DNA from: Flagellimonas hymeniacidonis
GTDB taxonomy: Bacteria; Bacteroidota; Bacteroidia; Flavobacteriales; Flavobacteriaceae
Direction of reading: 5' to 3'
Assembly: GCF_008040165.1 (NCBI RefSeq)
Contig: NZ_VRUR01000002.1
Location: 558,001 to 622,000 of the forward strand
DNA: 64,000 nt
This document shows positions 22,591 to 37,717 of the stretch, one piece after another; positions within the stretch are counted from its first letter, which is position 1, and every line of letters starts with the position of its first letter. Below the pieces are notes generated by a model. That model worked only from the letters and a program-made list of their open reading frames with translations, had not been told where the DNA came from and ran no database searches. Position numbers and translations under genes: made by a program.

Positions 22591-22665
22591 CGGGATGTGG
22601 CGCAGTCCGGTTAGCGTACACGGCTGGGGGCCGTGTGGTCGCAGGTTCAAATCCTGTCATCCCGA
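22591..22665 (+). tRNA. tRNA-Pro (anticodon GGG)
   Basis: A full cloverleaf can be drawn: acceptor stem CGGGATG / CATCCCG, anticodon stem CACGG / CCGTG with loop CTGGGGG (anticodon GGG), a T-arm around GGTTCAAATCC, and discriminator A at 22665. CCA is not encoded. Its 3' end appears to be the insertion site of the element that follows. Confidence 0.96.
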
Positions 22666-22666
22666 C
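22656..22666 (+). repeat. Candidate attL core
   Basis: GTCATCCCGAC at the 3' end of tRNA-Pro is repeated exactly at 37341-37351; a further five bases upstream match at three positions. Confidence 0.5.
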
Positions 22667-22771: not shown

Positions 22772-22786
22772 TAGAGTTCGGTGAAT
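22772..22786 (+). repeat. Candidate left integrase arm-type site
   Basis: TAGAGTTCGGTGAAT lies about 105 bases inside the left core and 98 bases before the integrase ATG. An identical 15-mer occurs at 37264-37278, about 62 bases inside the right core, in the same orientation. Confidence 0.5.
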
Positions 22787-22883: not shown

Positions 22884-24143
22884 ATGCGGAACAACAGTAC
22901 ATTAAAGGTTCTCATTTTTACCAGAGACCACACAAACAATCCAGAAAGGCTTACCATTTATGCGCGGATAACCGTTGACGGGAAGAGGGCAGAGATCAGT
23001 TTGAAACGCTACATTTCGGTGAATGATTGGGACGAAACACGGGGTAGGGTCATTGGCTTCTCACAGAAAGCACGACTCCTGAACAGTTATCTGGACGAAG
23101 TCTACATACAGATCATGGATGCCCATAAACAGCTCTTGGGGGAGGGAAAAGTAATAACCGCACAAGCTATCAAGGCCCGTTTTTTAGGGCAAGACGACCA
23201 AAACAAAACTTTAAAGGAACTTATAGAGTACCATAACAGGACGCAGGTATTGGTGCTTCGACCGGGTACCATGAAGAACTACTATTCAACGGAAAGATAT
23301 CTGGATAAGTTCTTGGACGAGAAATTGAAGCTCCCCGACATCTATTTGAAACAGTTGAGCTATAGGTTCATCTTGGATTTTGAGCAATATCTCAGGACTT
23401 ATCAACCTAAAAAAGCAAGAAAGACCTGTTCAAATAATGGGGCCATGAAACATTTGGAAAGGCTCATGAAGATGGTAAACCTTGCGGTAAGACTGGAATG
23501 GTTGGCAAAAGACCCGTTTCGGAATTACAAGCTCAATTTTCATAAAACAGAACGAAGCTACCTTACCGAAAGGGAACTTCGACTTATTGAGGAAACGAGC
23601 TTTAGGGGTGCCGGCTATGAAAAAGTAAAGGATGTATTTCTGTTTTCATGCTATACGGGACTCTCCTATATCGATGTCAAGGAATTGAAATCACATCAAT
23701 TAGTGCTGGGTATCGATGGAAACCTTTGGATACATACCAAACGGGAAAAGACCAATGAAACTGTAAAGATTCCATTATTGCCGAAAGCAAAAATGATACT
23801 GGAGAAATATAAGAGTGGAGAGGAAAAAGATGTTCTTGGTAAGGTCTTGCCCGTATTTAGCAACCAGAAAATGAACAGTTATCTAAAGTTTATTGTCAAA
23901 GCATGTGGCATACACAAACATGTGACCTTTCATACAGCACGGCACACTTTCGCGACCACAGTCACATTGTCAAACGGTGTCCCGATAGAAACGGTCTCGA
24001 AGATGCTTGGACATACCAAGCTTACCACTACCCAGATTTATGCAAGGGTTTTGGAGAGAAAAGTAGGAGAGGACATGCAGCACCTTATTGCAAAAATGGA
24101 AACCAAAAACAGTACTGAAGAAATACGATATCTGGAAAAATGA
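22884..24143 (+). CDS. Tyrosine recombinase / site-specific integrase
   Basis: A 419-residue integrase of the Bacteroidota type: an arm-binding N-terminus (VLIFTRDHTNNPERLTIYARI), a SAM-like core-binding domain (about 105-210) and a catalytic domain. The catalytic box HTARH lies at 350-354 (Arg353), a late His at 377 in MLGHTKL, and the nucleophile Tyr386 in QIYARV. The first catalytic Arg position reads CYTGLSYIDV, with Ser where many integrases have Arg; this is known in the CTnDOT-like group. It starts about 220 bases after tRNA-Pro and points away from it, the usual position of an integrase that targets a tRNA gene. All key residues are present, so it is likely active. Confidence 0.95.
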   Translation: MRNNSTLKVLIFTRDHTNNPERLTIYARITVDGKRAEISLKRYISVNDWDETRGRVIGFSQKARLLNSYLDEVYIQIMDAHKQLLGEGKVITAQAIKARFLGQDDQNKTLKELIEYHNRTQVLVLRPGTMKNYYSTERYLDKFLDEKLKLPDIYLKQLSYRFILDFEQYLRTYQPKKARKTCSNNGAMKHLERLMKMVNLAVRLEWLAKDPFRNYKLNFHKTERSYLTERELRLIEETSFRGAGYEKVKDVFLFSCYTGLSYIDVKELKSHQLVLGIDGNLWIHTKREKTNETVKIPLLPKAKMILEKYKSGEEKDVLGKVLPVFSNQKMNSYLKFIVKACGIHKHVTFHTARHTFATTVTLSNGVPIETVSKMLGHTKLTTTQIYARVLERKVGEDMQHLIAKMETKNSTEEIRYLEK

Positions 24144-24204
24144 AAAGGCATTTGATGTTTTCTGGATTTGATAGTGGAACGGTCAAATTCGGAAAAGCAA
24201 GAGG

Positions 24205-24227
24205 GTAACGCGCTAAAGCGACGTTAC
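24205..24227 (+). repeat. Inverted repeat between integrase and mobilisation gene
   Basis: GTAACG...CGTTAC forms the outer 6 bp of a hairpin that can extend inward through CGCT / AGCG with one bulged base. It lies 60 bases after the integrase stop and 150 bases before the BfmA-like start. It could be part of an origin of transfer or a terminator; it lacks a T run, which argues against the latter. Confidence 0.4.
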
Positions 24228-24298
24228 GTTATCAAAATTGATGTTAAAATGTTGAAAATCAATATTTTAAAAACAGATTAAAAGGGGTTTGAAATATT

Positions 24299-24354
24299 GA
24301 ATTGTAACAATTCGACCCAAGACCTTTATAAATAGGGCTTTAGATTGTCACAAT
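24299..24354 (+). promoter_or_regulatory. Twin ATTGTnACAAT palindromes upstream of the mobilisation gene
   Basis: ATTGTAACAAT at 24301-24311 (extending to GAATTGT/ACAATTC) and ATTGTCACAAT at 24344-24354 are two copies of one 11-base palindrome, 43 bases apart. The second ends 20 bases before the ATG at 24375, a typical place for an autoregulatory operator. Confidence 0.5.
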
Positions 24355-24374
24355 TGGATGAGAAAAATAAGAAA

Positions 24375-24926
24375 ATGGACAGGTTTGGAACCATACGGCT
24401 ACACCATAGAACCATTAAAAGGTTCAGGCGATTTTCAAGGAAGATGACAAAATCATATTCTGAGACCTTGGAATCGATTATGGACTTTTTTGAATGGCAT
24501 GGAATCTCTTCTGAAAGCAGGTTTCCAAAGAGGGTGGATGAAGATGGGGAGAAGACACGCAAAAGAATAAATGCTCTTATTGCTATTGTAAGGGACATAG
24601 AAAAGACTCAGACATTGCCTACGAACGAAATGCTATTGGCCCTCTTTGGACATCATGAAATCGTTAAAAAAAGCAAAGAACCCATTAGGGAAGAAACCAA
24701 GTTCAAAAAATTAACAAGGGAAGAATGGAATAAATTGGAAAAAAAAGTGTCCAAAATTGAATATGAGTTTTTGGAACAGGATTATAAAACGGCTACAAGA
24801 ACTGCATTGCATTTTTTGGAAAGGGTGGAGTGGGTCAAGCCACGTTTCGGGAGTCCATACTATAAAGTTGATACGGACGCAGGCGAACTGCACGTTCTTA
24901 AAAAGAGATTTAGAGATGGATTTTAA
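24375..24926 (+). CDS. BfmA/BtgA-family mobilisation protein
   Basis: About 183 residues from the ATG at 24375 (MDRFGTIRLHHRTIKRFRRF). The start is preferred over an in-frame TTG 30 bases upstream because it aligns with the family opening. The N-terminal half, RFGTIRLHHRT...KSYSETLESIMDFFEWHGI, is the ribbon-helix-helix-like segment of the BfmA/BtgA mobilisation proteins of Bacteroides elements; such proteins bind the transfer origin together with a relaxase. No relaxase is seen in the window, so the element would need one supplied in trans. The C-terminal half is basic and coiled, with no domain I can name. Confidence 0.75.
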   Translation: MDRFGTIRLHHRTIKRFRRFSRKMTKSYSETLESIMDFFEWHGISSESRFPKRVDEDGEKTRKRINALIAIVRDIEKTQTLPTNEMLLALFGHHEIVKKSKEPIREETKFKKLTREEWNKLEKKVSKIEYEFLEQDYKTATRTALHFLERVEWVKPRFGSPYYKVDTDAGELHVLKKRFRDGF

Positions 24927-25027
24927 AAGAGCCTCGCTCAGCAGTATTAGTCCTGGTAAGATTTGGGAAGCTTGCAGCGCAAAACTTTGTTTCGCTCGCT
25001 TTTGATTACCAAAAAATTGTACATTGT

Positions 25028-28000
25028 ATGAGTAGAACCAAAATCATGCCTTTTACCAAAATCAATCTTTTTTACGTATTGTTCCTAGGTGCATGGATGG
25101 CCGCAATAGCTCAAGAAGGAAGATTTGGACAGGAATTATATGCATTAAGTGGGGAAAAGTACTTTAGTACGGCCAATGCGCTAATAGAGGATAATTTGGA
25201 CAATTCCTTAAAAGATGGTAATGCCTTGGTAGTGGAAATTCTCGCGAACCCTGCCATATCCAATTATCCTGCAGAACATGCCACGGCCTATTACCTAAGG
25301 GGTAAAATCTTATACATTCAAGGGAGTTATGATGAAGCGTATGATCCTTTGGATAAGGCCATTACCCTTTATGGGGAAAATAACGATGAAGCCGGACTGG
25401 CGAAATCTTATCTGGCCAAAGGGGTGGCCTATACCTATCAAGGCCAAAAAGATAATGCCAAAATCACTTTAGATAAAAGTTTAGAACTATATACCGACGT
25501 GGACGATGAATCTGGAGTCGGCCAAACTTTGCATGAACTTGGTCATTTTTACTACATATTTGCTGATGATACCAAGGCTTTGGAGTATTATGAAAAAGCA
25601 TTGGATGTTCAAAAAAAAATAGATGACAAAAAAGGTATTTCCCAAAGTTATTTTAGAATGGGATTGGCGTACCTTTCAAGTGATAAGGGAGAGTCATTAA
25701 GACTCTTAGACCAAAGTAAAAGGCTTAAAGAAGAAATTGGTGATTTAAGAGGATTGGCAAAAGTTGGAATTTCTTTGGGCGTACTTCATGAAGAGAATGG
25801 AAACTATCAAAATGCTCTGGATTATTATAAGCAAAGTTTAGAAGCAAATGAAAAATTTGATGATAAGCGAGTCGCTTCCATTATCTATAACAATTTGGGA
25901 ATTGTCTATTTGGATTTAATGGAACTTGATAGTGCTATTGTGTACCATAACAAAGCCTTAGAGTTTAGAAAGATATTGGGAAATGAGCGCGGTGTCGTAC
26001 AATCACTTCTCAATATTGGTGAGGTATATCAAAAAAAGAAAGATTTTTATAGAGGATTGACTTTTTTCCATAAAGCAAAAGCAATTAGTGAAGCGAGTAG
26101 CAGAAAACCGTTCATGCCCAATATTGTTGAAAAATTGGGAGAGGTCCATTTAAGCCTAAACGCATTGGATAGTGCAGATATATATTTTACTATGGCATTG
26201 ATCCAAAAACAAGAAGCTGGTAATTTTAATAGTTTAAGTAGCACTTACAGGAATTTATCCAAATTATTCGAAAAGCGAAGGGATTATAAAAAATCTCTAG
26301 AATACTTTAAACAGTTTAAAACGGTTCAGGATAGTGTCACTATTAATAAGAAGAACCGTGAACTTGCCGAAGTTCAAGCTAAATACGATACCGCAAAGCA
26401 AGAAAGGGAAATCAATGAACTGCAACAAGAAAATAAATCCAGAAAACTGTGGCAAAATATTTATGCAGTTGGGGGCTTATTGGCATTAATATTAACAGTT
26501 ATACTTTTTCAATTCTTTAGATTCCGAAATAAAAAGAATCAAGAGCTATTGGCCATAAAGGAATCACAAAGACAACAATTAGAAGAGGTCAACCAATTAA
26601 AAACACGATTTTTCCATAACATCTCACACGAATTCAGAACACCTCTTACCCTTATCTTGGGGCCATTAGAGCAACTAAAAAGTACAGTTGATTCAAGCAT
26701 ACAACCAACGTTGGATATGATTGAAAGAAATGGAAAACGTTTGCTGAAGCTTATCAATCAACTACTCGATTTATCAAAGATTGAAGAAGGGAAAATTAGC
26801 CTAAAAGCATCTCATATTGATATTGTGCCACTAATAAAAGGTTGGGCAACCTCCTTTCAATCCATGGCAGAAATAAAAGGGGTAGGCCTATCCCTTAACT
26901 TAAAAAAAGAATCCCATTTTCTTTATGTGGATAAGGAAAAATTAGAAGAGATTATTATCAATTTATTATCAAATGCCCTTAAATATACGCCTTCGGGCGG
27001 GAGTGTCTCTTTAGATGTGGATGAAAGCGAAAATCAGTTATATATTACGGTTTCAGATACTGGCGATGGTATTCCAAAAGAAGAGCTTGAGTATATCTTT
27101 AACCGATTTTATCAAGCATCCAATGCAAATACGGAGAGCCAGATTGGAACGGGTATTGGGCTGGCATTGGTGAAGGAACTGGTAGAATTACATAAAGGAA
27201 CTATAACAGTCGATAGTGAAGTTGATAAAGGGAGTGTCTTTAAAGTAGCGTTGCCATTGGGAAAAGAACATTTATCTCCAAATGAAATTGTAACAATCTC
27301 TTCAACTATTGCAACTACGATTGAAAGGCAGCAGTCGGACCTTCCAACTGAGTGTGAAACGATAGGAAGTGAAAATGAGGAATTACCAATATTATTATTG
27401 ATTGAAGACAATGCTGATTTAAGAACATACATAAAAAGTGTATTAAAGAACCATTACTGCATCAGGGAAGCATTTGATGGGGAAGAAGGCATATCGCAAG
27501 CCGTTGAATTAATACCGGACATTATTATTAGCGATTTAATGATGCCCAAAGTGGATGGCTTAGAGGTCTGTAAAACATTGAAAGAAGATGTGCGTACCAG
27601 CCATATTCCTATTATCCTACTTACTGCTCGCTCATCCAAAGAAGACAAGATAGAAGGCTTGAAAAGTTTAGCCGATGATTACTTGACCAAACCCTTTAAC
27701 AATGAAGAGCTGTTGGTAAGAATAGAAAATCTGGTGGAAGTGAGAAGCAAAATGCAACAGCACTTTTCAACTGGTGAGATATTAAAGCCAAAGAAAGTAA
27801 CCCTCAATTCAATTGACCAGGACTTTATCAAAAAAGTTACTGATGTGTTGGAAGTTGAAATTGCCAATGAGAATTTTGGTGTTGTAGAATTGGCCGATGC
27901 CGTTGCGTTGAGCAGGTCGCAGCTGTTCAGAAAAATTAAGGCCATTACCAATCTTACCCCAAACGAATTTATTAGGTCATTTCGTTTGCATCGTGCCATG

Positions 28001-28135
28001 GATATGCTCAAACAGCAAAGTGGTACCATAGCAGAAATTGCATATAGTGTTGGATTCCAAAATCCATCCTATTTTTCAAAGTGTTTCCATGAACAATTTG
28101 GAGAATTGCCCAGCGATATTTCGCAAACCAATTAA
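25028..28135 (+). CDS. TPR-containing hybrid histidine kinase with receiver and AraC-type output
   Basis: A 1035-residue single-chain two-component regulator. After a signal peptide (ending AIAQ) there are about nine TPR repeats (roughly 60-430), a coiled segment, a membrane helix (about 475-497), a HisKA domain with phospho-acceptor His534 in NISHEFRTPL, an ATPase domain with NLLSNALKYT and DTGDGIP, a receiver domain with Asp836 in IIISDLMMPKVDG, and a C-terminal AraC helix-turn-helix (about 930-1035). Classical hybrid regulators of glycan loci use Reg_prop or periplasmic-binding sensors; here the TPR domain is the sensor. The gene lies immediately upstream of the hydroxylase-NHL operon, with tandem repeats in the gap, and probably activates it. 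All catalytic residues are present. Confidence 0.93.
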   Translation: MSRTKIMPFTKINLFYVLFLGAWMAAIAQEGRFGQELYALSGEKYFSTANALIEDNLDNSLKDGNALVVEILANPAISNYPAEHATAYYLRGKILYIQGSYDEAYDPLDKAITLYGENNDEAGLAKSYLAKGVAYTYQGQKDNAKITLDKSLELYTDVDDESGVGQTLHELGHFYYIFADDTKALEYYEKALDVQKKIDDKKGISQSYFRMGLAYLSSDKGESLRLLDQSKRLKEEIGDLRGLAKVGISLGVLHEENGNYQNALDYYKQSLEANEKFDDKRVASIIYNNLGIVYLDLMELDSAIVYHNKALEFRKILGNERGVVQSLLNIGEVYQKKKDFYRGLTFFHKAKAISEASSRKPFMPNIVEKLGEVHLSLNALDSADIYFTMALIQKQEAGNFNSLSSTYRNLSKLFEKRRDYKKSLEYFKQFKTVQDSVTINKKNRELAEVQAKYDTAKQEREINELQQENKSRKLWQNIYAVGGLLALILTVILFQFFRFRNKKNQELLAIKESQRQQLEEVNQLKTRFFHNISHEFRTPLTLILGPLEQLKSTVDSSIQPTLDMIERNGKRLLKLINQLLDLSKIEEGKISLKASHIDIVPLIKGWATSFQSMAEIKGVGLSLNLKKESHFLYVDKEKLEEIIINLLSNALKYTPSGGSVSLDVDESENQLYITVSDTGDGIPKEELEYIFNRFYQASNANTESQIGTGIGLALVKELVELHKGTITVDSEVDKGSVFKVALPLGKEHLSPNEIVTISSTIATTIERQQSDLPTECETIGSENEELPILLLIEDNADLRTYIKSVLKNHYCIREAFDGEEGISQAVELIPDIIISDLMMPKVDGLEVCKTLKEDVRTSHIPIILLTARSSKEDKIEGLKSLADDYLTKPFNNEELLVRIENLVEVRSKMQQHFSTGEILKPKKVTLNSIDQDFIKKVTDVLEVEIANENFGVVELADAVALSRSQLFRKIKAITNLTPNEFIRSFRLHRAMDMLKQQSGTIAEIAYSVGFQNPSYFSKCFHEQFGELPSDISQTN

Positions 28136-28164
28136 TATTTCTTAAAACCTTGGAATAGGCCAAA

Positions 28165-28203
28165 TGCAACATGCTTTGTATGTATTGCAACATCTTTTGC
28201 ATT
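28165..28203 (+). promoter_or_regulatory. Tandem 21-bp direct repeat, candidate binding site of the hybrid regulator
   Basis: TGCAACATGCTTTGTAT begins at 28165 and TGCAACATCTTTTGCAT at 28186: two direct copies exactly 21 bases apart, 14 of 17 positions identical. A partial third copy (TGCAACAAATCTGC) begins at 28237. Direct repeats spaced two helical turns apart are the usual site of a dimeric AraC-type domain, and they lie about 70-100 bases before the promoter box. Confidence 0.6.
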
Positions 28204-28271
28204 CCATATACATTTCTAAAAAACAATAAGTTACCATGCAACAAATCTGCGCTATAATGACACTTTTCAGG

Positions 28272-28303
28272 TTGAAGCTATAGGCGGTCCGGTAATATGT
28301 TTG
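28272..28303 (+). promoter_or_regulatory. Promoter of the hydroxylase-NHL operon
   Basis: TTG (28272-28274), a 21-base spacer and TATGTTTG (28296-28303) fit TTG-N17-23-TAnnTTTG. The box is 27 bases before the ATG at 28331. Confidence 0.55.
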
Positions 28304-28330
28304 CGGTGTTAATCTTAAAAACAAATTATT

Positions 28331-30181
28331 ATGATAACGCCATTAGAAATTTTATCAGATCCAGTATCTATTACTGTATTGGCAATGTATGCTTTATTAA
28401 TGTTTTGGGAAGCCGTTTACCCGGCACAAGTGTTGCCAAAAGTCAAATTTTGGAAATTAAGAGGATTATCGGCATTTGCATTTTTCTTCTTTTTATCATC
28501 TTATTTACCATTGTTTATAGACCCTTATTTAGAACCCTATCGTTTATTGGACCTTACTAATTTAACAACAGTTATTGGTGGATTGGTAGGTGTGTTTTTA
28601 TATGAGTTTGGCGTGTATGTGTGGCATCGTTCATTACATAAATCTAACTTCTTATGGAGAACATTCCATCAAATGCACCACAGTGCAGAAAGATTAGACA
28701 CATTCGGGGCATTTTATTTCAGTCCATTAGATATGATAGGATGGACGGTTTTAGGAAGCGTTTGTTTTACCTTATTAATAGGCTTGTCACCACAAGCAAT
28801 AACGGTCATGCTTTTAGTAACAAACTTTTTGGGCATGTTTCAGCACGCCAATATCAAAACAGCACCATGGTTGGGTTACATTATTCAACGACCAGAAAGT
28901 CATACAGTTCATCACGCAAAAGGAATCCACAAACATAACTATTCCGATTTACCAATTTTCGATATCCTTTTTGGCACATTTAAAAACCCTAAAACGTATG
29001 AGCATGAAACGGGGTTTTTCCATGGTGCTTCAGCAAAAGTTTTACAAATGCTAATGTTTAAGGATTTGAATAAAATTAATGGGAAAAAAAGTAAAACTGC
29101 CAAAACAATTGCCAAAGCAACGGTTGTTTTAATTATAACATTTATGGTATTTAGTTGCAGTAACGACGATTCAGAATCTATAATTGAAACACCAGAACCA
29201 ATCCAAATAGTAACCGTAAGTACGCTTGCTGGCAATGGAGAAGATGGTTTAGTTAACGGAACGGTTAACGAGGCACAATTTGACTACCCCCAAGATATTG
29301 CTATTGATAATGAAGGAACTATTTACGTTGCAGATAGTCGTAATCACGTCATTAGAAAAATAACTCAAGATGGTATGGTATCTACTTATGCAGGTAGTAT
29401 GCAAGGTGATGGAGACGGTACACTATTAAATGCCAAATTCAATATTCCTAGAGGAGTTGCGGTTGATAACTCTGGTAATGTATATGTTGCCGATACTAAT
29501 AATAACAAAATCAAAAAAATCACACCTATGGGTGTTGTGGTTACTCTTGCTGGTAAAAGTGAAGATGGATATGAAGATGGTCCAGGTAGCGAGGCTCAAT
29601 TTAATTATCCAAGTGATATCGACATAGATAGTGAGGGAAATCTATTTGTTGCCGATTATTATAACCATAAAATCCGCAAAATAACACCAGAAGGCATTGT
29701 AAGTACAGTAGCTGGTGGTGATATAGGTTTTGCAGATGGCCCTGCGATGAGCGCTCAATTTGACCATCCTACAAGTGTAACTGTAGATGCTTTGGGTAAC
29801 CTATTTGTTGCTGATAATGAAAACCACAAAATTCGTAAAATAAGTACAGATGGCATGGTAAGCACTCTAGCTGGAAGTATTGATGGATATGCAGATGGTA
29901 ATGGTGCTAATGCAAAATTTAATTATCCAGAATATGTTGCTGTAGATGGAAATGGGTATCTGTATGTCACAGATACCTATAATTATCGAGTTAGAAAAAT
30001 AAGCCCTAATGGAGATGTTACCACATTAGCGGGAAGCACAGAAGGATTTTCTGATGGAATAGGTAATATCGCCCAATTTAATCAGCCTAGAGGCATAGCA
30101 ATAGGCGCAGATAATATTATTTATGCTGCCGATGAAAGAAACCATAGCATCAGAAAAATAACTATTGAGGAATCAAATTAA
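28331..30181 (+). CDS. Fatty-acid hydroxylase/sterol desaturase-family enzyme fused to an NHL propeller
   Basis: A 616-residue chimera. Residues 1-250 form an integral-membrane di-iron hydroxylase with about four membrane segments and histidine clusters HRSLH (99-103), HQMHH (113-117) and HTVHH (191-195). Then a basic stretch and hydrophobic helix ending FMVFSC (Cys276) looks exactly like a lipoprotein signal peptide, and is followed by SNDDSE and about six NHL repeats (residues 295-616; VSTLAGS...ADG...A.FN.P.GIAVD..GN.YVAD..NHKIRKI). Topology: hydroxylase active site on the cytoplasmic side, propeller outside. It is the first gene after the proposed regulator-controlled promoter, and the next NHL gene starts 5 bases later. 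The fusion may be recent and in frame, or a real bifunctional protein. Confidence 0.85.
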   Translation: MITPLEILSDPVSITVLAMYALLMFWEAVYPAQVLPKVKFWKLRGLSAFAFFFFLSSYLPLFIDPYLEPYRLLDLTNLTTVIGGLVGVFLYEFGVYVWHRSLHKSNFLWRTFHQMHHSAERLDTFGAFYFSPLDMIGWTVLGSVCFTLLIGLSPQAITVMLLVTNFLGMFQHANIKTAPWLGYIIQRPESHTVHHAKGIHKHNYSDLPIFDILFGTFKNPKTYEHETGFFHGASAKVLQMLMFKDLNKINGKKSKTAKTIAKATVVLIITFMVFSCSNDDSESIIETPEPIQIVTVSTLAGNGEDGLVNGTVNEAQFDYPQDIAIDNEGTIYVADSRNHVIRKITQDGMVSTYAGSMQGDGDGTLLNAKFNIPRGVAVDNSGNVYVADTNNNKIKKITPMGVVVTLAGKSEDGYEDGPGSEAQFNYPSDIDIDSEGNLFVADYYNHKIRKITPEGIVSTVAGGDIGFADGPAMSAQFDHPTSVTVDALGNLFVADNENHKIRKISTDGMVSTLAGSIDGYADGNGANAKFNYPEYVAVDGNGYLYVTDTYNYRVRKISPNGDVTTLAGSTEGFSDGIGNIAQFNQPRGIAIGADNIIYAADERNHSIRKITIEESN

Positions 30182-30186
30182 AAACC

Positions 30187-31269
30187 ATGAAACATATAAT
30201 AAAAATAAGTTTACTACTAGCATTAACATTAGTAATAATTGGCTGTAGCAAAGACAATTCAGAGCCTATAATCGAAACTCCTGAACCAACACCAACTCAA
30301 ATTATAACAGTAAGTACAATTGCGGGTAATGGGGATATTGGCTCTAATAATGGTTCAGCTAACATAGCAACTTTCAGTTTGCCTACAGGTATAGTAAGAG
30401 ATGCGTATGGAAATATATATGTAGCTGATACCGATAGTCATAGAATAAGAAAAATAGATTTGAACGGAACTGTTAGCACTTTTTCAGGAAGCGATAAAGG
30501 CTTTGCAGATGGTTCATTGACAGAAGCAAAGTTTAATAAACCAACGGGATTGGTCATTGATTCTAATGGCAATATATATGTAACCGATAAAGATAATAAC
30601 AGAATAAGAATAATTACTCTAGATGGAAAAGTGAACACTTTGGCAGGTGCATCCAGAGGAGATAAGGATGGTTTAGGTGCTGATGCAAACTTTAATTCAC
30701 CTACAGGAATTGATGTTGATGTTGATGGTAACCTTATTGTTAGTGATAATGGTAACCATAAAATAAAGATGGTGACTCCATTTGGTATGGTAACCACAAT
30801 TGCTGGAAGCGATGAAGGGTTTGCAGATGGTATCGGAAATGAAGCCCAATTCAATTTTCCTTTTAATCTGGCTGTCAATAAAGATGGAAATATCTATGTA
30901 ACTGACGCTAAAAACCACCGTATTAGAAAAGTTACTCCAGAAGGCAATGTAACAACCTTAACGGGAAGTAGAGAAGGTTTAAATAATGGAGTATTGTCTG
31001 AAGCACTTTTTAGCCATCCTTTGTCAATTGCATCTGATGATTTAGGAAACTTATATGTGGCAGGAAGTAATTACCAAATAAGAAAGATATCATCTGAAGG
31101 TGTAGTGAGCACTATCGCAGGAAGTACTTCAGGATATGATGATGGTTTAGGCATTGTGGCAAAATTTGAAAGAATCCATGACATATGTATAGATGAAAGT
31201 AATAATCTACTTATGGCTGATTCCGAGAATTATAGAATCAGAAAAATCACCATAGAAGAGTCAAATTAA
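30187..31269 (+). CDS. NHL-repeat lipoprotein
   Basis: A 360-residue lipoprotein (lipobox IIGC, Cys20) made almost wholly of about six NHL repeats (VSTIAGN.G..NG.A..ATF..PTGIV.DA.GNIYVAD...HRIRKI), forming a six-bladed propeller. It lacks the IPT domain of the next three proteins, so it resembles the C-terminal half of the hydroxylase-NHL fusion, from which it is separated by 5 bases. NHL propellers usually mediate protein or ligand binding rather than catalysis, and a periplasmic or surface location is expected. It is part of the same operon as the four related genes. Confidence 0.85.
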   Translation: MKHIIKISLLLALTLVIIGCSKDNSEPIIETPEPTPTQIITVSTIAGNGDIGSNNGSANIATFSLPTGIVRDAYGNIYVADTDSHRIRKIDLNGTVSTFSGSDKGFADGSLTEAKFNKPTGLVIDSNGNIYVTDKDNNRIRIITLDGKVNTLAGASRGDKDGLGADANFNSPTGIDVDVDGNLIVSDNGNHKIKMVTPFGMVTTIAGSDEGFADGIGNEAQFNFPFNLAVNKDGNIYVTDAKNHRIRKVTPEGNVTTLTGSREGLNNGVLSEALFSHPLSIASDDLGNLYVAGSNYQIRKISSEGVVSTIAGSTSGYDDGLGIVAKFERIHDICIDESNNLLMADSENYRIRKITIEESN

Positions 31270-31316
31270 ATAAGAAGGGACTAAAGTTTCAGAAACATCA
31301 ATAAAAAATATAGACA

Positions 31317-32645
31317 ATGAAAAATTCAATAATAAAAATAAGTTCGCTACTACTTATGGTAATAGTAATGTATAGTTGTAGCAAAGACAGTGATTCAGAA
31401 ATTGAGGCCATAGAACCTCCCATAGAAGTATCTACAGACCCCAGTTTAGGAGTGATATCACCCTTAACAGGGCCACAGAAAACAGAAGTAACTATCAATG
31501 GTTCCAATTTTGGTACAGATATATCAAAAGTGACTGTATTTTTTAATGAAAAGGAAGCTATTGTTGAAAGTGTTACAGATACAAAAATTGTAACAGAAGT
31601 ACCTACAAGAGCTTTTACAGGAACTATCAAAGTATTTATAGATGATACAGAATTAATAGGTCCAGAATTCACCTATGTCATTTCTGGCAGAAGGGTAAGC
31701 ACATTTGCTGGTGGCCTTGAAGGAATGAATGATGGTGTAGGATTAAGCGCAAAATTCAGACGCCCAAAGCATGGTGTTTTTGATGATGAGGGCAACCTAT
31801 ATGTCACCGATAGTGAAAATTACAGAATAAGAAAAATTACCCCTCACAAAGTGGTAAGTACATTTTCTGGTGGTACTAGAGGTTTTGAAGACGGTGATGC
31901 CACTACTGCAAAATATGAGTACCCAACAGGGATTACCATAGATAATGATGGCAACTTATACGTAACAGATGCATCTAAACATGCCATACGTAAAATTACC
32001 CCAGAAGGTATAGTTACAACTTTGGCTGGAAATGGTTCTGAAGGAGATGCAGACGGTACAGGTGAAGATGCCCAATTTTATTGGCCTCAAGATATTGCAT
32101 TTAGAAATGGACTTTTATATGTGGCAGATATGAATAATAACAGTATAAGAAAGGTAACTCTTAATGGAGAGGTTACTACCCTTGCGGGTGGAAATCAAGG
32201 GGATTCAGACGGTCAAGGAATAAATGCCCAGTTTAAGGTTCCTCATGGTATAGCTACAGATGCTCAAGGAAATATTTATGTTGCCGATACAGGTAACGAT
32301 AAAATAAAAAAGGTTACCCCACAAGGTTTGGTAACCACAATTGCAGGAACTATTGCGGGCTATGAAGATGGAGTGTCAACACAAGCAAGATTTAATAATC
32401 CAACAGATATAATCATTGACGACATGGGCACATTATTTATAGTGGATAGGTATAACTACAAAATTCGAAGTATGTCTTCAGATGGTACAGTTACTACAAT
32501 TGCAGGTTTAGGTATAGGAGACGTAGATGGTTTGACAACTCAAGCAAAATTTAGATATCCAAACGGGATAGTTCAAGACACAGAAGGAATAATATATGTA
32601 ATGGATTCTGAAAATCATAAGATAAAAACCATAAAGGAAGAATAA
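31317..32645 (+). CDS. IPT/TIG and NHL-repeat lipoprotein (paralogue A)
   Basis: A 442-residue lipoprotein (Cys21 in MYSCSKD). Residues about 40-120 form an IPT/TIG immunoglobulin-like domain (LGVISPLTGPQKTEVTINGSNFG, then VTVFFNEKEAIVESVTDTKIVTEVPT). Residues about 125-442 hold about six NHL repeats. IPT domains in Bacteroidota lipoproteins are common stalks of surface glycan-binding proteins, so this could present the propeller on the cell surface. It lies 47 bases after the previous gene, in the same operon. Confidence 0.85.
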   Translation: MKNSIIKISSLLLMVIVMYSCSKDSDSEIEAIEPPIEVSTDPSLGVISPLTGPQKTEVTINGSNFGTDISKVTVFFNEKEAIVESVTDTKIVTEVPTRAFTGTIKVFIDDTELIGPEFTYVISGRRVSTFAGGLEGMNDGVGLSAKFRRPKHGVFDDEGNLYVTDSENYRIRKITPHKVVSTFSGGTRGFEDGDATTAKYEYPTGITIDNDGNLYVTDASKHAIRKITPEGIVTTLAGNGSEGDADGTGEDAQFYWPQDIAFRNGLLYVADMNNNSIRKVTLNGEVTTLAGGNQGDSDGQGINAQFKVPHGIATDAQGNIYVADTGNDKIKKVTPQGLVTTIAGTIAGYEDGVSTQARFNNPTDIIIDDMGTLFIVDRYNYKIRSMSSDGTVTTIAGLGIGDVDGLTTQAKFRYPNGIVQDTEGIIYVMDSENHKIKTIKEE

Positions 32646-32664
32646 AACTTGAAAAGATAAAACA

Positions 32665-33966
32665 ATGAAAAAGTTAATTATAAAATTGAATATGCTATTC
32701 CTAGTATTACTATCAATAAGCAGCTGTAGTAGCGACAATGATACTGTAGCAACGCCAATGGCAACACTATCATCCATAAGTCCAACAAGTGGACCTAAAG
32801 ATACAGTAGTTACTATTATTGGAGATAACTTTGGAGCAGACTTAAATAAAATTCAAGTATTTTTTAATGATGTTGAAGCAGAGGTGCAATCGGTAGCCAA
32901 TACAAAAATAGTCACAAAAGTTCCAGTTAGAGCCTATTCTGGTACTGTTAAAATAATAGTTAGAGATGCCGAATTAGGGGGTTCTGAATTCACATACTTA
33001 CTTAGTGAAACTGTTGTTACAACTTTTGCTGGTGACATTCAAGGAGATACTGATGGCACGTTAGAAAATGCCCAATTTTCAGGACCGGTTGACGGTGTTT
33101 TTGATTCTAATGGAAATTTATTTGTTGTAGACAATAGTACTCATAAAGTTAGAAAAATAACACCAGATGGTGTGGTTTCAACTTTTGCAGGTAGTACTAT
33201 AGGTTATGAAGATGGAATTGGTACAGAAGCTAAATTTAGAACACCATTTGGTATTGCAATAGATGCCAATAGCAATATCTATGTAGCAGATGCAGGTAAT
33301 AGTAGAATAAGAAAAATTACCCCAGAAGGTGCGGTAAGTACATTTGCAGGAGGCGATTCTGGAAATGAAGATGGAAACGCATTGGATGCTAAGTTTAGCA
33401 CGCCTCACGCAATAGATACAGACGGACAAGGGAATCTTTATGTGACTGATGTTCTAAACCATAGTATTAGAAAAATCACCCCAGATGGAACGGTTAGCAC
33501 CTTTGCGGGTAGCACTGTTGGAGATGAAGATGGAATTGGAAGCAATGCTAAATTAAACAGACCTAGAGGGCTTAAAGTGGATGCACAGGGCAATATTTTT
33601 ATCACCGATTCTTTTAACAATAAAATTAAAAAAATAACACCTCAAGCACAAGTTACCACAATTGCAGGAGACGTAGGTGGCAATAGAGATGGTAATGGCA
33701 CTTTTGCGCTATTCAATATTTCATTAGGGATTGATGTAGATACAGAAGGCATTTTATACGTTGCAGACACCAATAACCATAGTATTAGAAAAATTAATAC
33801 GAGTGGTGATGTAATTACTTATGCAGGTAATGGTGATGGCTATGAAGATGGAATTGGTGCGGAAGCAAAATTCGACAGACCCTTCAACATAATTCTTGAA
33901 GATGAGTACACATCATACGTAATGGATTTAAACAATAACCGAATCCGAAAAATCACTCAAGAGTAA
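32665..33966 (+). CDS. IPT/TIG and NHL-repeat lipoprotein (paralogue B)
   Basis: A 433-residue lipoprotein (Cys21 in SISSCSSD) with an IPT/TIG domain (about 32-112; LSSISPTSGPKDTVVTIIGDNFG) and about six NHL repeats (about 115-433). It is 19 bases after paralogue A. Sequence similarity to its neighbours is strong in the repeat core (GNLYVTD..NHSIRKITPDG.VSTFAGS) and weaker in the loop residues between blades, the positions that would face a ligand. Confidence 0.85.
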   Translation: MKKLIIKLNMLFLVLLSISSCSSDNDTVATPMATLSSISPTSGPKDTVVTIIGDNFGADLNKIQVFFNDVEAEVQSVANTKIVTKVPVRAYSGTVKIIVRDAELGGSEFTYLLSETVVTTFAGDIQGDTDGTLENAQFSGPVDGVFDSNGNLFVVDNSTHKVRKITPDGVVSTFAGSTIGYEDGIGTEAKFRTPFGIAIDANSNIYVADAGNSRIRKITPEGAVSTFAGGDSGNEDGNALDAKFSTPHAIDTDGQGNLYVTDVLNHSIRKITPDGTVSTFAGSTVGDEDGIGSNAKLNRPRGLKVDAQGNIFITDSFNNKIKKITPQAQVTTIAGDVGGNRDGNGTFALFNISLGIDVDTEGILYVADTNNHSIRKINTSGDVITYAGNGDGYEDGIGAEAKFDRPFNIILEDEYTSYVMDLNNNRIRKITQE

Positions 33967-34034
33967 TAGTTAATTAATAGCAGTTTCCCATATCAGTAAA
34001 GCTGTTTGCCATAAGCAAGCTTTAATGACAGTAA

Positions 34035-34060
34035 AAACCTGCCTTTAGGTTGGCAGGTTT
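34035..34060 (+). terminator. Hairpin between NHL paralogues B and C
   Basis: Perfect 9-bp stem AAACCTGCC / GGCAGGTTT with an 8-base loop. Only a short T run follows, so it may be a weak terminator or a 3'-end stabilising structure. Confidence 0.5.
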
Positions 34061-34102
34061 ATGGGAACATCACAAATCGAAATATTAAAAAAAAAAGTAA
34101 TC

Positions 34103-35368
34103 ATGAAATCAATTTATAAAACAGTTTTAGTAGCACTATGCATTTTGGTATTTAGTTGTAGCAAAAATGATGATGCTAATATAATAGTTGAAACACCTAT
34201 TCCAATAGTATCAGCAATAGGTCCCGAGAGTGGAACAAAAAATACAGTTGTAACCATTAATGGTAACAATTTTGGCACAGATGCCAGTAAGGTACAAGTG
34301 TTTTTTAACGGCAAAGAAGCAAATGTTAGCCAAGTTAGAAATACTAAAATCGGCACTATCGTTCCGGCAGGAGCATATACGGGAGAAGTAAAAGTAATAA
34401 TTGATGGTACCGTGTTAATAGGTCCCGAGTTTGAGTATATCCTATCTGGGGCAGTTGTAACCACTTTGGCAGGATCAAGAGAGGGGTTTGTAGATGGTAA
34501 TGGTATAGATGCCAGGTTTAACAGGCCTACAGGGTTGGCTGTAGATTCAAATGGTAACATATTTGTTGCAGACCCTGGAAACCATCGCATTAGAAAAATT
34601 ACTCCAGATGGCATGGTAACAACCTTTTCTGGAGGAGAGAAAGGCGATAGAGATGGATTTGGTTCAGCCGCCCAATTTAATGCTCCCTGGGATGTTGATA
34701 TTGATGCAGATGGCAATGTATATGTAGCTGATTCAGGAAATCATAGAATTCGTAAAATAGCCCCAAATGGAAATGTAATAACCCTGGCAGGGCTCACTCA
34801 AGGAAACGCTGATGGAAGAGGGACGGACGCACAGTTTGATACACCAACAGGAATTGCAGTTACGCCAGCTGGAATAGTATACGTAGCGGACTCTAGAAGT
34901 GGAATGATTCGAAAAATAGACCTAGAAGGTAATGTAACTTCATTTTCTAGCGGTTTTGGAGTTGTAGTAGGAATTACTATAGATGAAGAAGAGAATGTAT
35001 TCTTTACGGAGCCTAATGGACATTATATTTGGAAAATTAATTTTGAAAATAATGAGATAGCACTTATCGCGGGTGATGGAGAAGGTGATGTTGATGGACA
35101 CATTGAAGGAGCACAGTTTCGATATCCAAGAGGTCTAGATATAGATGCGGAGGGTAATATCTATGTGGTCGACGAGCAGAATCAAAAAATTAAAAAGATT
35201 AGTGGTGACCAGGTAATCACTTATGCAGGTAGTATTGAAGGAGAGGCGGATGGGTCTGGACTAGATGCTCAATTTAACCATCCGTTTGGGGTGACAGTAG
35301 ACACCAGCGGTAATGTATATGTTGCCGATACTTCCAATCATAGAATTCGTAAAATAATCCAAGAATAA
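34103..35368 (+). CDS. IPT/TIG and NHL-repeat lipoprotein (paralogue C)
   Basis: About 421 residues from the ATG at 34103, chosen because it gives a clean lipoprotein signal (MKSIYKTVLVALCILVFSC, Cys19); an upstream in-frame ATG at 34061 overlaps the hairpin and adds an unnatural leader. It has an IPT/TIG domain (about 32-112) and about six NHL repeats. One repeat in the middle is divergent (VFFTEPNGHYIWKINFENN), breaking the usual YVAD...RKI pattern, which may mark a special blade. It ends one base before the small membrane protein gene. Confidence 0.85.
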   Translation: MKSIYKTVLVALCILVFSCSKNDDANIIVETPIPIVSAIGPESGTKNTVVTINGNNFGTDASKVQVFFNGKEANVSQVRNTKIGTIVPAGAYTGEVKVIIDGTVLIGPEFEYILSGAVVTTLAGSREGFVDGNGIDARFNRPTGLAVDSNGNIFVADPGNHRIRKITPDGMVTTFSGGEKGDRDGFGSAAQFNAPWDVDIDADGNVYVADSGNHRIRKIAPNGNVITLAGLTQGNADGRGTDAQFDTPTGIAVTPAGIVYVADSRSGMIRKIDLEGNVTSFSSGFGVVVGITIDEEENVFFTEPNGHYIWKINFENNEIALIAGDGEGDVDGHIEGAQFRYPRGLDIDAEGNIYVVDEQNQKIKKISGDQVITYAGSIEGEADGSGLDAQFNHPFGVTVDTSGNVYVADTSNHRIRKIIQE

Positions 35369-35369
35369 T

Positions 35370-35621
35370 ATGGAACGTTTTAGATTGCAGAATACATTCA
35401 CGCTTTTATGCATAATTTTTATTGATATCGTAGCTTATTTGTTAATGGCTTTTTTAGTCATGGATGATGACTGGCAATTTGCCAATTCTAAAACCTTCTT
35501 ATCCATGACCATATATCTTTGGTATGGAGTGAATTCCATTTTTATTGGATACTTACTCTTTTTAGGGATCAAGATTCTCAAAAAAGAAAGAGTAGATCTT
35601 AAAGTGGGCAAAGGCAATTAA
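35370..35621 (+). CDS. Small two-helix membrane protein of unknown function
   Basis: An 83-residue protein with two hydrophobic helices (about 9-30 and 47-67) and a basic tail (KKERVDLKVGKGN). Its ATG follows the previous stop by one base and the kinase gene starts two bases after its own stop, so it is embedded in the operon and is unlikely to be a chance frame. I do not recognise a family. Confidence 0.65.
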   Translation: MERFRLQNTFTLLCIIFIDIVAYLLMAFLVMDDDWQFANSKTFLSMTIYLWYGVNSIFIGYLLFLGIKILKKERVDLKVGKGN

Positions 35622-35623
35622 AA

Positions 35624-36148
35624 ATGATTTATCTATTAATAGGACAAAAAGGAAGTGGTAAAACATTCATAGGTGAATTGTTTGAAAAGCATTTCAACAT
35701 CAAATTTGTTCGTGTTGAAGATTGGGCCAAACCAATAAAAAAAGACAGAAAGGTAGATGATGAAAACTATCTAAAAGAAGTGTTTGCCGCAGTTGAGAAC
35801 GGAATTAGAGGCTCATTGCAAAAACGCGAATCATTGGTTTTTGAATCTACCGGACTGACAAAATACTTTGATGCCATGTTGCTCAATCTTCAGTCGGATT
35901 TTAAAGTGGTTACCATTGGTGTTAAAGCCACGTCAGAACTGTGTTTGGATAGAGTAAAGTCCAGAGACCAATCCATTCATATCAACGTGTCCGATGAGCA
36001 AGTAAACAAAATAAATGATGCTGTAATTAAGCGTAACAGGCAAACAGATTTTGTCATTAACAACAATAACAAAAGTGAACCAAGTTTAGTAGATGAAATA
36101 GCCAATATCATCAATAAAAATGTTCAACTAAAAAATAGAAAAACATGA
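35624..36148 (+). CDS. P-loop nucleotide kinase-like protein
   Basis: A 174-residue cytosolic protein. It opens with a Walker A motif (GQKGSGKT, residues 7-14), has VFESTGLTKYF as a likely substrate/Walker B-like strand near residue 71, and a lid-like segment rich in Arg and Lys (DRVKSRDQS). Size and layout resemble the adenylate/shikimate/dephospho-CoA kinase group, but no substrate can be assigned. Its end overlaps the next gene by 4 bases (ATGA), so the two are translationally coupled. Confidence 0.7.
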   Translation: MIYLLIGQKGSGKTFIGELFEKHFNIKFVRVEDWAKPIKKDRKVDDENYLKEVFAAVENGIRGSLQKRESLVFESTGLTKYFDAMLLNLQSDFKVVTIGVKATSELCLDRVKSRDQSIHINVSDEQVNKINDAVIKRNRQTDFVINNNNKSEPSLVDEIANIINKNVQLKNRKT

Positions 36149-37197
36149 AAAAAATAAATAATATAATATTAACGGACGGAGGTTTAGAAACTGATTTAAT
36201 CTTTAACCATAATATAGAACTAGAACATTTTGCAGCGTTTCCTTTGGTAGAAGATCATATCCACAAAAACACCCTAAAAAATTACTACAAGGATTATCTT
36301 GAAGTTGCAAAGGATAGCAAGACTGGTTTTATATTAGAGAGCCCAACCTGGAGAGCAAATTTAGATTGGGGTTTAAAATTAGGGTACACAAAAGAACGGC
36401 TAATAGCAGTAAATAAATTGGCTATAGCGCAACTTGCTGATTTAAGGGAAACATACAGCAAGGATATTCAAAATATCTTTGTAAGCGGCCAAATTGGCCC
36501 AAGAGGAGATGGTTATCAAGTAAATACAAGTATGTCCTATTTAGAAGCTTCTGATTATCATAATCTGCAGGTTCAGGCATTTAAAGAAGCTAATGTTGAT
36601 TTGGTTACTGCAATTACCATGACTTATTCAGAGGAAGCTTTGGGTATTGTGAAATCTACTGAATATCATAATATTCCAGTGGTCATTTCATTTACGGTAG
36701 AATTGGATGGTAAACTACCCAGCGGTGAAAGCTTAAAAGAAGCTATTAAAAAAATAGATAACGAGACAGGAGAATATCCATTGTACTATATGATTAACTG
36801 TGCACACCCTACACATTTCATAGCTGAGTTGGAGACTGATGAAGCTTGGAAAAATAGAATTCAAGGAATCAGGGCAAACGCATCCTGTAAAAGTCATGCC
36901 GAGCTGGATGAAGCCCTTGAATTGGATAAAGGAGATAAAGGTGAACTGGGAGTATTACATAAAAAACTGCAGCTACTACTGCCCGAGTTAAAAGTGTACG
37001 GGGGCTGCTGTGGAACGGATGTATCCCATGTAACGACAATTTGTAATGCAATAAGAATGGATAGTGAATCTCTTTTTACAGAATCCGAAGTTCTAGTTCC
37101 AATAAACGACACTTTAATTGTTCAGTCGGAGATGGACCCAAAAAGTAATAAGGAGGGATTACTAATTTTAACAAAGAATCTATTAACATCGAATTAA
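36145..37197 (+). CDS. Homocysteine S-methyltransferase-family protein
   Basis: A 350-residue cytosolic TIM barrel. It begins ILTDGGLETDLIFN, the family's opening strand, and carries the zinc-binding cysteines: one in MINCAHP (near 218) and two in GGCCGTD (near 287). Family members transfer a methyl group from S-methylmethionine or betaine-like donors to homocysteine or selenocysteine. It is the last gene of the operon and of the proposed element. Its role beside NHL lipoproteins and a lipid hydroxylase is unclear. Confidence 0.85.
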   Translation: MKKINNIILTDGGLETDLIFNHNIELEHFAAFPLVEDHIHKNTLKNYYKDYLEVAKDSKTGFILESPTWRANLDWGLKLGYTKERLIAVNKLAIAQLADLRETYSKDIQNIFVSGQIGPRGDGYQVNTSMSYLEASDYHNLQVQAFKEANVDLVTAITMTYSEEALGIVKSTEYHNIPVVISFTVELDGKLPSGESLKEAIKKIDNETGEYPLYYMINCAHPTHFIAELETDEAWKNRIQGIRANASCKSHAELDEALELDKGDKGELGVLHKKLQLLLPELKVYGGCCGTDVSHVTTICNAIRMDSESLFTESEVLVPINDTLIVQSEMDPKSNKEGLLILTKNLLTSN

Positions 37198-37263
37198 TTC
37201 GTATTTTCATGGTGCGAAACACCCATAAATTTTGTACAAAAATGTACTGATTTGAACACAGTT

Positions 37264-37278
37264 TAGAGTTCGGTGAAT
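37264..37278 (+). repeat. Candidate right integrase arm-type site
   Basis: TAGAGTTCGGTGAAT, identical to 22772-22786 and in the same orientation, 62 bases inside the right core repeat. Confidence 0.5.
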
Positions 37279-37327
37279 CAGTTTAGGGAATCAGTGTAAG
37301 ATATTGATATATAGGATATTGTGATGA

Positions 37328-37717
37328 CTATTTTGATTCAGTCATCCCGACCTTTATCTCGAAACCCTTATTAGTAGGGATCACTTGGAAGTTATCTACT
37401 ACGGATTTTCTGTATTTCAATACAAAATACTGGTCGAATTTTTTGTCATTGTCGGCATCCACTGCAATCAGTTTAGTGACCTTGGCTGCCGTGGTTTCCC
37501 TGTCTTGATTGACGTCTCCCTCATCTTTACTGTCAAACTGCATGGGATAGTCCCGATGTTCCAAGACCTTTATGTTACATGTGGTCTCGGTTCCATCTAC
37601 ATCAATAGTAAAGGTTTTATAAAGTGTTGCATTTAGGGTTCCCGAATTTTGATTCTAGGCCTGCATGCCGAATAAGGTGATTAGGGATAGACTTAATATG
37701 TTGAAAATATTTTTCAT
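37328..37717 (-). pseudogene. Small secreted protein gene with an amber stop, running into the proposed element
   Basis: From the ATG at 37717 the frame reads MKNIFNILSLSLITLFGMQA, then TAG (37657-37655), then NQNSGTLNATLYKTFTIDVDG and on to a TAA at 37328. The first part is a clean signal peptide; the stop falls exactly at the expected QA-Q cleavage region and is one base change from CAG (Gln). The rest is an open, plausible secreted domain of about 109 residues. The final residues cross the right core repeat, so the 3' end may have been replaced when the element integrated. No family recognised. Confidence 0.6.
37341..37351 (+). repeat. Candidate attR core
   Basis: GTCATCCCGAC, an exact direct copy of the tRNA-Pro 3' end at 22656-22666. 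Confidence 0.5.

Follow-up and report, generated by a model that had tools for sequence, protein, structure and literature searches.

Organization of the gene cluster

We analysed a stretch of 64,000 nucleotides from the genome of Flagellimonas hymeniacidonis (NCBI RefSeq assembly GCF_008040165.1, contig NZ_VRUR01000002.1, positions 558,001 to 622,000 of the forward strand; hereafter, the window). Positions 25028–37197 of the window contain a gene cluster, encoded in one direction throughout, which comprises genes for a hybrid sensor kinase, a membrane hydroxylase (FA_hydroxylase) fused to an NHL propeller, four NHL lipoproteins, a small membrane protein, a P-loop protein and a protein of the homocysteine S-methyltransferase family (S-methyl_trans) (Table 1). 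A reading made from the sequence alone had described these genes and domains and suggested, from the spacing, a single operon. The list of open reading frames (ORFs) and the Pfam search bore out the genes, their coordinates, their common direction and their domains. The lipoproteins are present as described, but the TIG domain in the last three had been missed. The Pfam search gave no match for the small membrane protein.

The spacing reported in that reading also agrees with our result for the genes from the hydroxylase to the methyltransferase (28331–37197), which are separated by gaps of 1–94 bases (5, 47, 19, 94, 1 and 2) and one 4-base overlap. The kinase gene is a separate unit: the 195 bases between its end and the hydroxylase start contain a conserved promoter region, so that it cannot simply be assigned to the hydroxylase operon. 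All 22 matches to PF01436 (NHL) in the 3.9-Mb genome lie within the cluster, whereas FA_hydroxylase occurs at seven places.

Table 1. Features of the cluster and of the surrounding island (positions in the window)
Feature	Position	Strand	Basis or remark
tRNA-Pro (GGG), integration target	22591..22666	+	ARAGORN
Left attachment (att) core GTCATCCCGAC	22656..22666	+	last 11 bases of tRNA-Pro
End repeat TAGAGTTCGGTGAAT, left copy, putative integrase arm site	22772..22786	+	
Tyrosine recombinase	22884..24143	+	Pfam Arm-DNA-bind_5, Phage_int_SAM_5, Phage_integrase
BfmA/BtgA-family mobilization protein	24345..24926	+	NF041200, 89.4 bits (cut-off 24)
Hybrid sensor kinase	25028..28135	+	Pfam TPR, HisKA, HATPase_c, Response_reg, HTH_18; orthologues
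Predicted regulator site 1, TGCAACA-N14-TGCAACA, 21-bp period	28165..28192	+	166 bases before hydroxylase start
Predicted regulator site 2, degenerate pair (3 mismatches), 21-bp period	28237..28264	+	72 bases after site 1
Promoter -7 box TATGTTTG (TAnnTTTG)	28296..28303	+	TTG upstream at 28272–28274
FA_hydroxylase (residues 1–248) fused to six-bladed NHL propeller (residues about 291–616)	28331..30181	+	Pfam, propeller model
Internal lipoprotein signal-peptide-like segment between hydroxylase and NHL	29084..29158	+	residues 252–276, end VFSC
NHL lipoprotein 2	30187..31269	+	Pfam; lipobox IIGC read from sequence
TIG-NHL lipoprotein 3	31317..32645	+	Pfam; lipobox read from sequence
TIG-NHL lipoprotein 4	32665..33966	+	Pfam; lipobox read from sequence
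TIG-NHL lipoprotein 5	34061..35368	+	Pfam; lipobox read from sequence
Small membrane protein, 83 aa	35370..35621	+	translation; resembles small ORFs of L092 and L096
P-loop (AAA_33) protein, Walker A GQKGSGKT	35624..36148	+	Pfam, 29.3 bits (cut-off 27); 54–60% identity to L094 and L096
S-methyl_trans (homocysteine S-methyltransferase family) protein	36145..37197	+	Pfam, 114 bits; C219, C288, C289
End repeat TAGAGTTCGGTGAAT, right copy	37264..37278	+	
Right att core GTCATCCCGAC, right island end	37341..37351	+	G312 similarity stops at core

The sensor kinase and its predicted target sites

The kinase is a single polypeptide in which a sensor is combined with HisKA, HATPase, receiver and AraC-type helix-turn-helix (HTH) domains, which is the architecture of the hybrid two-component systems (HTCSs). 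The domain order is also that of an HTCS: a signal peptide, a TPR superhelix that is predicted to be periplasmic, a transmembrane segment, HisKA, HATPase_c, the receiver and the AraC-type HTH. The N-terminal hydrophobic segment (signal peptide) and the transmembrane segment near residue 480 were read from the sequence, and the superhelix was modelled with a mean predicted local distance difference test (pLDDT) score of 84.

HTCS logic is known mainly from glycan foraging. The HTCSs of glycan foraging in Bacteroides are the subject of PMC3878776, and that paper provides the following comparison. The window kinase shares with these regulators the single-protein architecture, direct-repeat sites at about 21 bp and, as predicted here, the control of an adjacent operon. 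It differs in its sensor, which consists of TPR repeats instead of the COG3292-type periplasmic sensor of most known HTCSs, an exception in sensor type being accepted there for BT1754. It also differs in its target, a membrane hydroxylase/NHL operon without SusC/SusD, and in the presence of two 21-bp pairs 71–72 bases apart.

The direct repeat TGCAACA-N14-TGCAACA precedes the hydroxylase unit, with no more than one mismatch, in all eight loci in which the cluster or part of it was recognized (the window and L091–L097; see the next section). When words taken from the window were tested at spacings of 8 to 44 bases (37 spacings), 21 was the sole spacing common to the eight loci, the next best being common to two; in resampled sequences, the mean was 0.003 loci and never more than one was obtained in 2000 trials. 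The position of the repeat is also conserved: in seven loci, site 1 starts 164–166 bases upstream of the hydroxylase start codon, and in L096 it starts 221 bases before an extra ORF. All eight loci also have a second, weaker pair of equal period (1–3 mismatches), 71–72 bases downstream of the first. TAnnTTTG, which we take to be a Bacteroidota-type -7 box, is likewise present in every one of them and ends 25–28 bases before the start codon (seven loci) or 83 bases before the extra ORF (L096). None of the 65 other hydroxylase loci scanned (L086–L090 and L098–L157) contained the TGCAACA pair, nor did the NHL arrays and kinase paralogue of F. algicola (L200–L203). L091 keeps the pair without a linked kinase gene, and the kinase is encoded elsewhere in the same genome (L092).

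According to PMC3878776, the tandem sites in predicted HTCS motifs of Bacteroides are on average 21 bp apart. Because the repeat is present in all eight loci and its spacing equals this published average, the kinase very probably controls the hydroxylase/NHL operon, as had been proposed, together with candidate regulator sites, in the sequence-only reading. By its regulation the cluster is HTCS-like, with a target that is new to us. Genome-wide, 3–8 TGCAACA pairs (at most one mismatch) were counted per genome in eight genomes, compared with 0–3 for the backward pattern; we claim no wider regulon, because such pairs also occur in G229, a genome without the cluster. In another genome (G330; L204, 6210–6329), a GAF hybrid kinase gene and an NHL gene are separated by a 21-bp-period repeat of TGTTACATA.

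The HTCS-type regulator, the spacing of its sites and the TIG domains could also be accounted for if the cluster were an uptake or glycan-sensing locus, with the TIG-NHL lipoproteins serving as the surface binding proteins of a reduced polysaccharide-utilisation locus. We consider this improbable, given that neither SusC/SusD nor carbohydrate-active genes are present between the kinase and the methyltransferase in the window, L094, L096 and L097, and that the sensor is of the TPR type.

Recurrence in other genomes

Relatives were sought with an alignment of four fused hydroxylase–NHL proteins against GTDB genomes, which yielded at least 80 loci. The whole or a part of the layout was found in seven further loci (L091–L097) of Flavobacteriaceae, Cytophagales and Saprospiraceae. 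The gene set and order of the window are matched in two of them. L094 contains, in this order, the kinase, the fused hydroxylase–NHL, an NHL, a small ORF, the P-loop and the methyltransferase genes, and L096 (F. algicola) contains the kinase gene, a 171-aa ORF, a separate hydroxylase gene, three NHL genes, a small membrane ORF and the P-loop and methyltransferase genes. The other five are shorter versions: kinase, fused hydroxylase–NHL and a small ORF in L092 and L093; the fused gene and three NHL genes in L091; the kinase and a 370-aa hydroxylase, whose tail was read by eye as a one-blade NHL remnant, in L095 (Agaribacillus aureus, Cytophagales); and the kinase, hydroxylase and methyltransferase in L097 (Saprospiraceae).

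Orthologues of the kinase were detected in three of 299 family genomes (E<=1e-200) and in three of 71 genus genomes (E<=1e-180), absences in the family surveys being uncertain because only the best candidates per genome were scored there (two for the kinase and four for the hydroxylase–NHL). Counting the window once, there are six orthologues, five of which adjoin a hydroxylase gene; the sixth, on contig 14 of F. algicola, lies beside an NHL array and a truncated S-methyl_trans gene. A search for the same gene order, suggested as a check when the cluster was noticed, revealed co-occurrence, the absence of which would have refuted the proposal, and the loci, the kinase orthologues and the phylogenetic trees described below indicate that the genes travel together. 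The NHL genes, listed as a part of the cluster, are not essential to it, as is seen from L097. No description of this layout or of the hydroxylase–methyltransferase pair was found in a search of the open-licence literature, consistent with the earlier statement that no named system is known to have it.

Large tandem arrays of NHL/TIG genes are present in F. algicola (L200–L203; contigs 9, 14 and 13), with 16 genes on contig 9 (one of them short), seven on contig 14 and at least five on contig 13. Two of the arrays run to contig ends, and the arrays are accompanied by truncated S-methyl_trans genes and a kinase paralogue.

These arrays, with their truncated methyltransferase and kinase paralogue, fit an alternative in which the core consists of the NHL lipoproteins and the TPR kinase, acting as a periplasmic ligand–receptor pair, with the hydroxylase and methyltransferase as one of several possible outputs. 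In this view, a ligand would be captured by the propellers, which in turn would be read by the TPR superhelix. In four of 12 NHL-only loci taken from the family survey (L072, L076, L078 and L081), NHL genes were also found in the neighbourhood of TPR sensor kinases belonging to other two-component classes (one hybrid, two HisKA_3/LuxR and one LytS/LytTR), whereas 40 control loci contained a single TPR kinase (Fisher's test, p = 0.008; p = 0.034 if the count is restricted to the three kinases that another locus's query had found). The control queries included the NHL-linked kinases themselves, which favours them, and the NHL-only places of the survey in G004, G021, G119, G137 and G239, as well as a second one each in G094 and G135, lay outside the 12 loci. 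However, the sample is small, no TPR kinase was seen in the remaining eight loci, and L097 retains the kinase, hydroxylase and methyltransferase without NHL. In addition, TPR kinases are common (6–9 matches per genome to one of them in five genomes), and we therefore regard the association as a lead and this alternative as rather unlikely.

The hydroxylase–NHL fusion

The FA_hydroxylase domain was identified with a Pfam score of 98 bits (cut-off 31), and histidines 99, 103, 113, 116, 117, 172, 191, 194, 195 and 200 are invariant in 10 aligned hydroxylases, including that of the window. A phmmer search of solved structures with the hydroxylase gave one non-significant match only. The NHL half was modelled with pLDDT values mostly above 90, and its closest structure in the PDB is a teneurin-like protein (9ifo), followed by the lumenal domain of a quenching protein and NHLRC2. 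The six-bladed NHL fold is common to the window propellers and to the teneurin-like protein, the plant-type 'quenching protein' lumenal domain, NHLRC2 and TRIM71; the window propellers differ in being bacterial lipoproteins or part of a fusion.

The five full-length fusions each contain, in frame between the two halves, a lysine-rich and a hydrophobic stretch together with a cysteine (VFSC, ALGC, TFSC, ALNC and SIGC), which is preceded by G or S in four of them. We read the junction as a lipoprotein-type signal peptide that carries a lipobox cysteine, which suggests a membrane-anchored or cleaved product. An ATG is present in the lysine-rich part only in L094, where a separate start could lie. 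In L096, the hydroxylase gene is not fused but overlaps a lipoprotein gene by 8 bases. Judging from the in-frame segment and this separate lipoprotein gene, the NHL part of the fusion is probably exported, and it may also be lipidated and cut. In fused proteins of the fbcH type, a membrane enzyme is followed by an in-frame signal peptide and an exported domain. The window protein resembles these in that its membrane enzyme is likewise followed in frame by a signal segment and a putatively exported domain, and differs in that the segment is of the lipoprotein type and its processing is putative.

A run of eight A is present in L096 around 10755, where the hydroxylase and NHL frames separate, and eight A also occur in the fused L094. 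A recent fusion of two separate genes was considered and not simply accepted, because the hydroxylase tree has fused members on both sides of L096 (L091–L093; the window and L094) and L095 has a possible NHL remnant. The fusion may instead be ancestral, with a later split in L096.

Pairing with the methyltransferase and evolutionary history

In a tree of 72 hydroxylases, the eight kinase-linked or NHL-fused proteins form one side of a branch (91 in the Shimodaira–Hasegawa-like approximate likelihood ratio test, SH-aLRT), and none of 500 label shuffles gave a value as low. In the neighbouring six-member group, five hydroxylase genes come after a gene for a TPR protein that starts with the motif AVLPF. 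A single group among 26 methyltransferases (SH-aLRT 97) likewise unites those of the window, L094, L096 and L097, and the two divergent, truncated F. algicola methyltransferases fall outside it. The two trees therefore fit joint inheritance. C219, C288 and C289 of the S-methyl_trans protein, presumably zinc-binding cysteines, are invariant in seven aligned sequences, the window included. No relative was found for this protein among solved structures (phmmer, E<=0.001).

A methyltransferase gene is located at most 1.5 kb after the hydroxylase gene in 12 of the 31 readable loci of L091–L122 and in five of the 32 of L123–L157, including Pseudomonadota, and an AVLPF protein gene precedes the hydroxylase gene in 20 of 32 and none of 30 loci, respectively. 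The hydroxylase–methyltransferase pair also occurs without NHL and kinase genes, and a further pair is present elsewhere in the window's own chromosome (L090). From this distribution, the pair is probably older than the NHL genes; in the history that we infer, the TPR kinase took the place of the AVLPF protein on one occasion, and the NHL genes were inserted between the hydroxylase and the methyltransferase. L097 may have lost its NHL genes.

An operon that encodes an AVLPF-type TPR protein, FA_hydroxylase and S-methyl_trans is conserved in L086, L090, L099, L102, L107, L111, L112 and others and is among the closest relatives of the cluster: its hydroxylase is 63–74% identical and is often followed by the same methyltransferase family (including in L090). 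It differs in that its upstream TPR protein lacks a kinase and that NHL genes and the TGCAACA site are absent. We found no name for this operon.

A GNAT-like gene follows the hydroxylase gene in L104, L108, L109, L114 and L120 (checked with Pfam in L104 and L109). In L135, a gene for a DJ-1_PfpI/HTH_18 (GlxA-like) regulator is divergent from the hydroxylase–methyltransferase pair; GlxA-like regulators often control quaternary-amine use.

A mobile island at the tRNA-Pro gene

The cluster is carried on a 14.7-kb integrase-bearing island at tRNA-Pro (22667–37351). The element delimited in the sequence-only reading, 25028..37197, thus lies inside a larger one that begins at tRNA-Pro and also contains an integrase and a BfmA/BtgA-type protein, for which the Pfam search gave no match. 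The core GTCATCCCGAC that flanks the island is present in only two copies in the window, and none of 100 window shuffles gave two matches. A long tRNA repeat was considered as the att site and rejected, no second copy being found of 22 bases, nor of 14 bases with up to two mismatches. The 11-base core was accepted because a sister island in another genome of the genus (G312; L221) has the same ends. This island, about 10 kb in length, consists of the tRNA core, the repeat TAGAGTTCGGTGAAT, an integrase gene, a BfmA-type gene, other cargo, the repeat and the core. At their right ends, the two islands are 82.6% identical over 138 bases, with the similarity ending at the core; TAGAGTTCGGTGAAT was dropped as a candidate crossover point because the similarity to G312 continues to the core.

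The window integrase is 84–86% identical to integrases at the identical tRNA-Pro site in G312 and G319. Among 19 same-genus tRNA-Pro loci examined for the end repeat (L052–L070), TAGAGTTCGGTGAAT is located 104–105 bases after tRNA-Pro in five (L052, L054, L061, L062 and L066), and a related integrase (73–86% identical) is present in four of these five, but not in L054 (G317). The right-end pattern was found in two of eight genomes searched (the window's and G312) and not in G319, G325 or G307 despite the presence of the integrase. We did not find a clean empty site, since the proteins of the window's right flank are absent from the stretch read after tRNA-Pro in eight same-genus genomes, and the right boundary therefore rests on the comparison with G312. 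Among these eight genomes, G319 has integrase and BfmA-type genes in common with the window.

Besides the integrase and the BfmA-type protein, no mobility genes, and specifically no relaxase or transfer genes, were found among the proteins of 22667–37351. The island is therefore not an integrative and conjugative element, and its integrase, tRNA target, flanking core repeats and sister element with other cargo are those of a tRNA-targeted integrative element.

In L221 (1915–11938), the cargo of the sister island comprises a 1266-aa protein and three lipoprotein-like proteins, and a further copy of the core end CATCCCGAC is present at 16611. On the left, a repeat-rich surface-type protein of 2773 aa (window 13661–21982) adjoins tRNA-Pro; its C-terminal 600 residues are 81–90% identical in eight same-genus genomes.

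The site is a hotspot, and in G312 it holds different cargo with an integrase of the same family. The genes might accordingly be unrelated cargo gathered by the island, with no joint function. This is contradicted by their recurrence in other families and orders, where the stretches read do not include the window's integrase, by the co-inherited hydroxylase and methyltransferase groups and by the conserved promoter and gene order, and we regard it as very improbable. The hotspot position could also point to an anti-phage or inter-bacterial defence island, for which a PADLOC scan of seven proteins gave weak matches to TPR, NHL-type PD-T4-6 and VakA models. These matches are weak or to generic domains (17–73 bits), and in the ten proteins scanned with Pfam no nuclease, toxin or NADase domain could be recognised, leaving such a role hardly credible.

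Proposed function and implications

We propose that the cluster forms a mobile cassette, made up of a regulator and its effectors, that remodels the cell envelope, an interpretation that we consider reasonably probable as a whole. Our confidence is high for the cassette itself and its regulation, the anatomy, conservation, island and site being supported by sequence. In the proposed mechanism, the periplasmic TPR superhelix would receive a signal, upon which the kinase would phosphorylate its own receiver and the AraC-type domain would bind both repeat pairs and start the operon. The lipoprotein-type segment at the C-terminal side of the di-iron membrane hydroxylase would carry the NHL propeller across the inner membrane, where it would stay tethered or be cut loose at the lipobox cysteine, and the other NHL/TIG lipoproteins would serve as binding modules, either in the periplasm or on the cell surface. 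The S-methyl_trans enzyme, paired with the hydroxylase family even where NHL is absent, would be made alongside. The most likely chemistry would be that, once the sensor fires, a membrane lipid or some other hydrophobic compound is hydroxylated; for this step, lipid hydroxylation is put forward tentatively and with some doubt.

Of the NCBIfam models, only that of OlsE, the ornithine-lipid headgroup hydroxylase, matched the hydroxylase part. PMC11631085 describes lipid hydroxylation of the OlsE type in bacteria, and its reference list includes work in which this is reported to be widespread in Bacteroidetes. The window protein resembles OlsE as a membrane hydroxylase of the FA_hydroxylase fold with conserved histidines, and differs in its NHL fusion and HTCS-type control.

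Several observations weigh against our interpretation. The hydroxylase scores 68 bits against the OlsE equivalog NF052566, far below the cut-off of 475, and the hydroxylase half of the structure model is of low confidence. The S-methyl_trans protein scores 55 bits against the equivalog NF007020 (cut-off 215) and is below the cut-offs of all four homocysteine-/methionine-synthase-type models that it matched. Because of these scores, we name no substrate for either enzyme. The SH-aLRT value of the hydroxylase group is below the tool's mark of 95, one of the five fusions has N before the lipobox cysteine, and Pfam finds no NHL in the hydroxylase tail of L095. Furthermore, the parts are not constant: NHL is lacking in L097, no kinase lies within 10 kb in L091, the methyltransferase is absent from the stretch read in L091, L092, L093 and L095, and the P-loop gene was detected only in the window, L094 and L096.

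It is also conceivable, though we think it unlikely, that NHL lipoproteins and TPR sensor kinases form a general, unnamed ligand–receptor pairing in Flavobacteriia that spans several two-component classes. If so, the mobile hydroxylase would carry an NHL domain released by lipoprotein processing at an internal signal peptide, the enzyme and one binding module of its own sensor system would be made as one polypeptide, and large NHL arrays such as those of F. algicola would represent diversified repertoires of binding modules.

For the proposed envelope-remodelling cassette, the analysis defines a module in which a predicted binding site and a promoter precede an operon on a mobile element. The genus includes natural strains that carry the island and others that lack it, the kinase being present in three of the 71 genus genomes. 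The occurrence of the hydroxylase–methyltransferase pair in different phyla points to a pathway that we did not find described, and the cluster suggests that horizontally moved HTCS-type cassettes also remodel the cell envelope.

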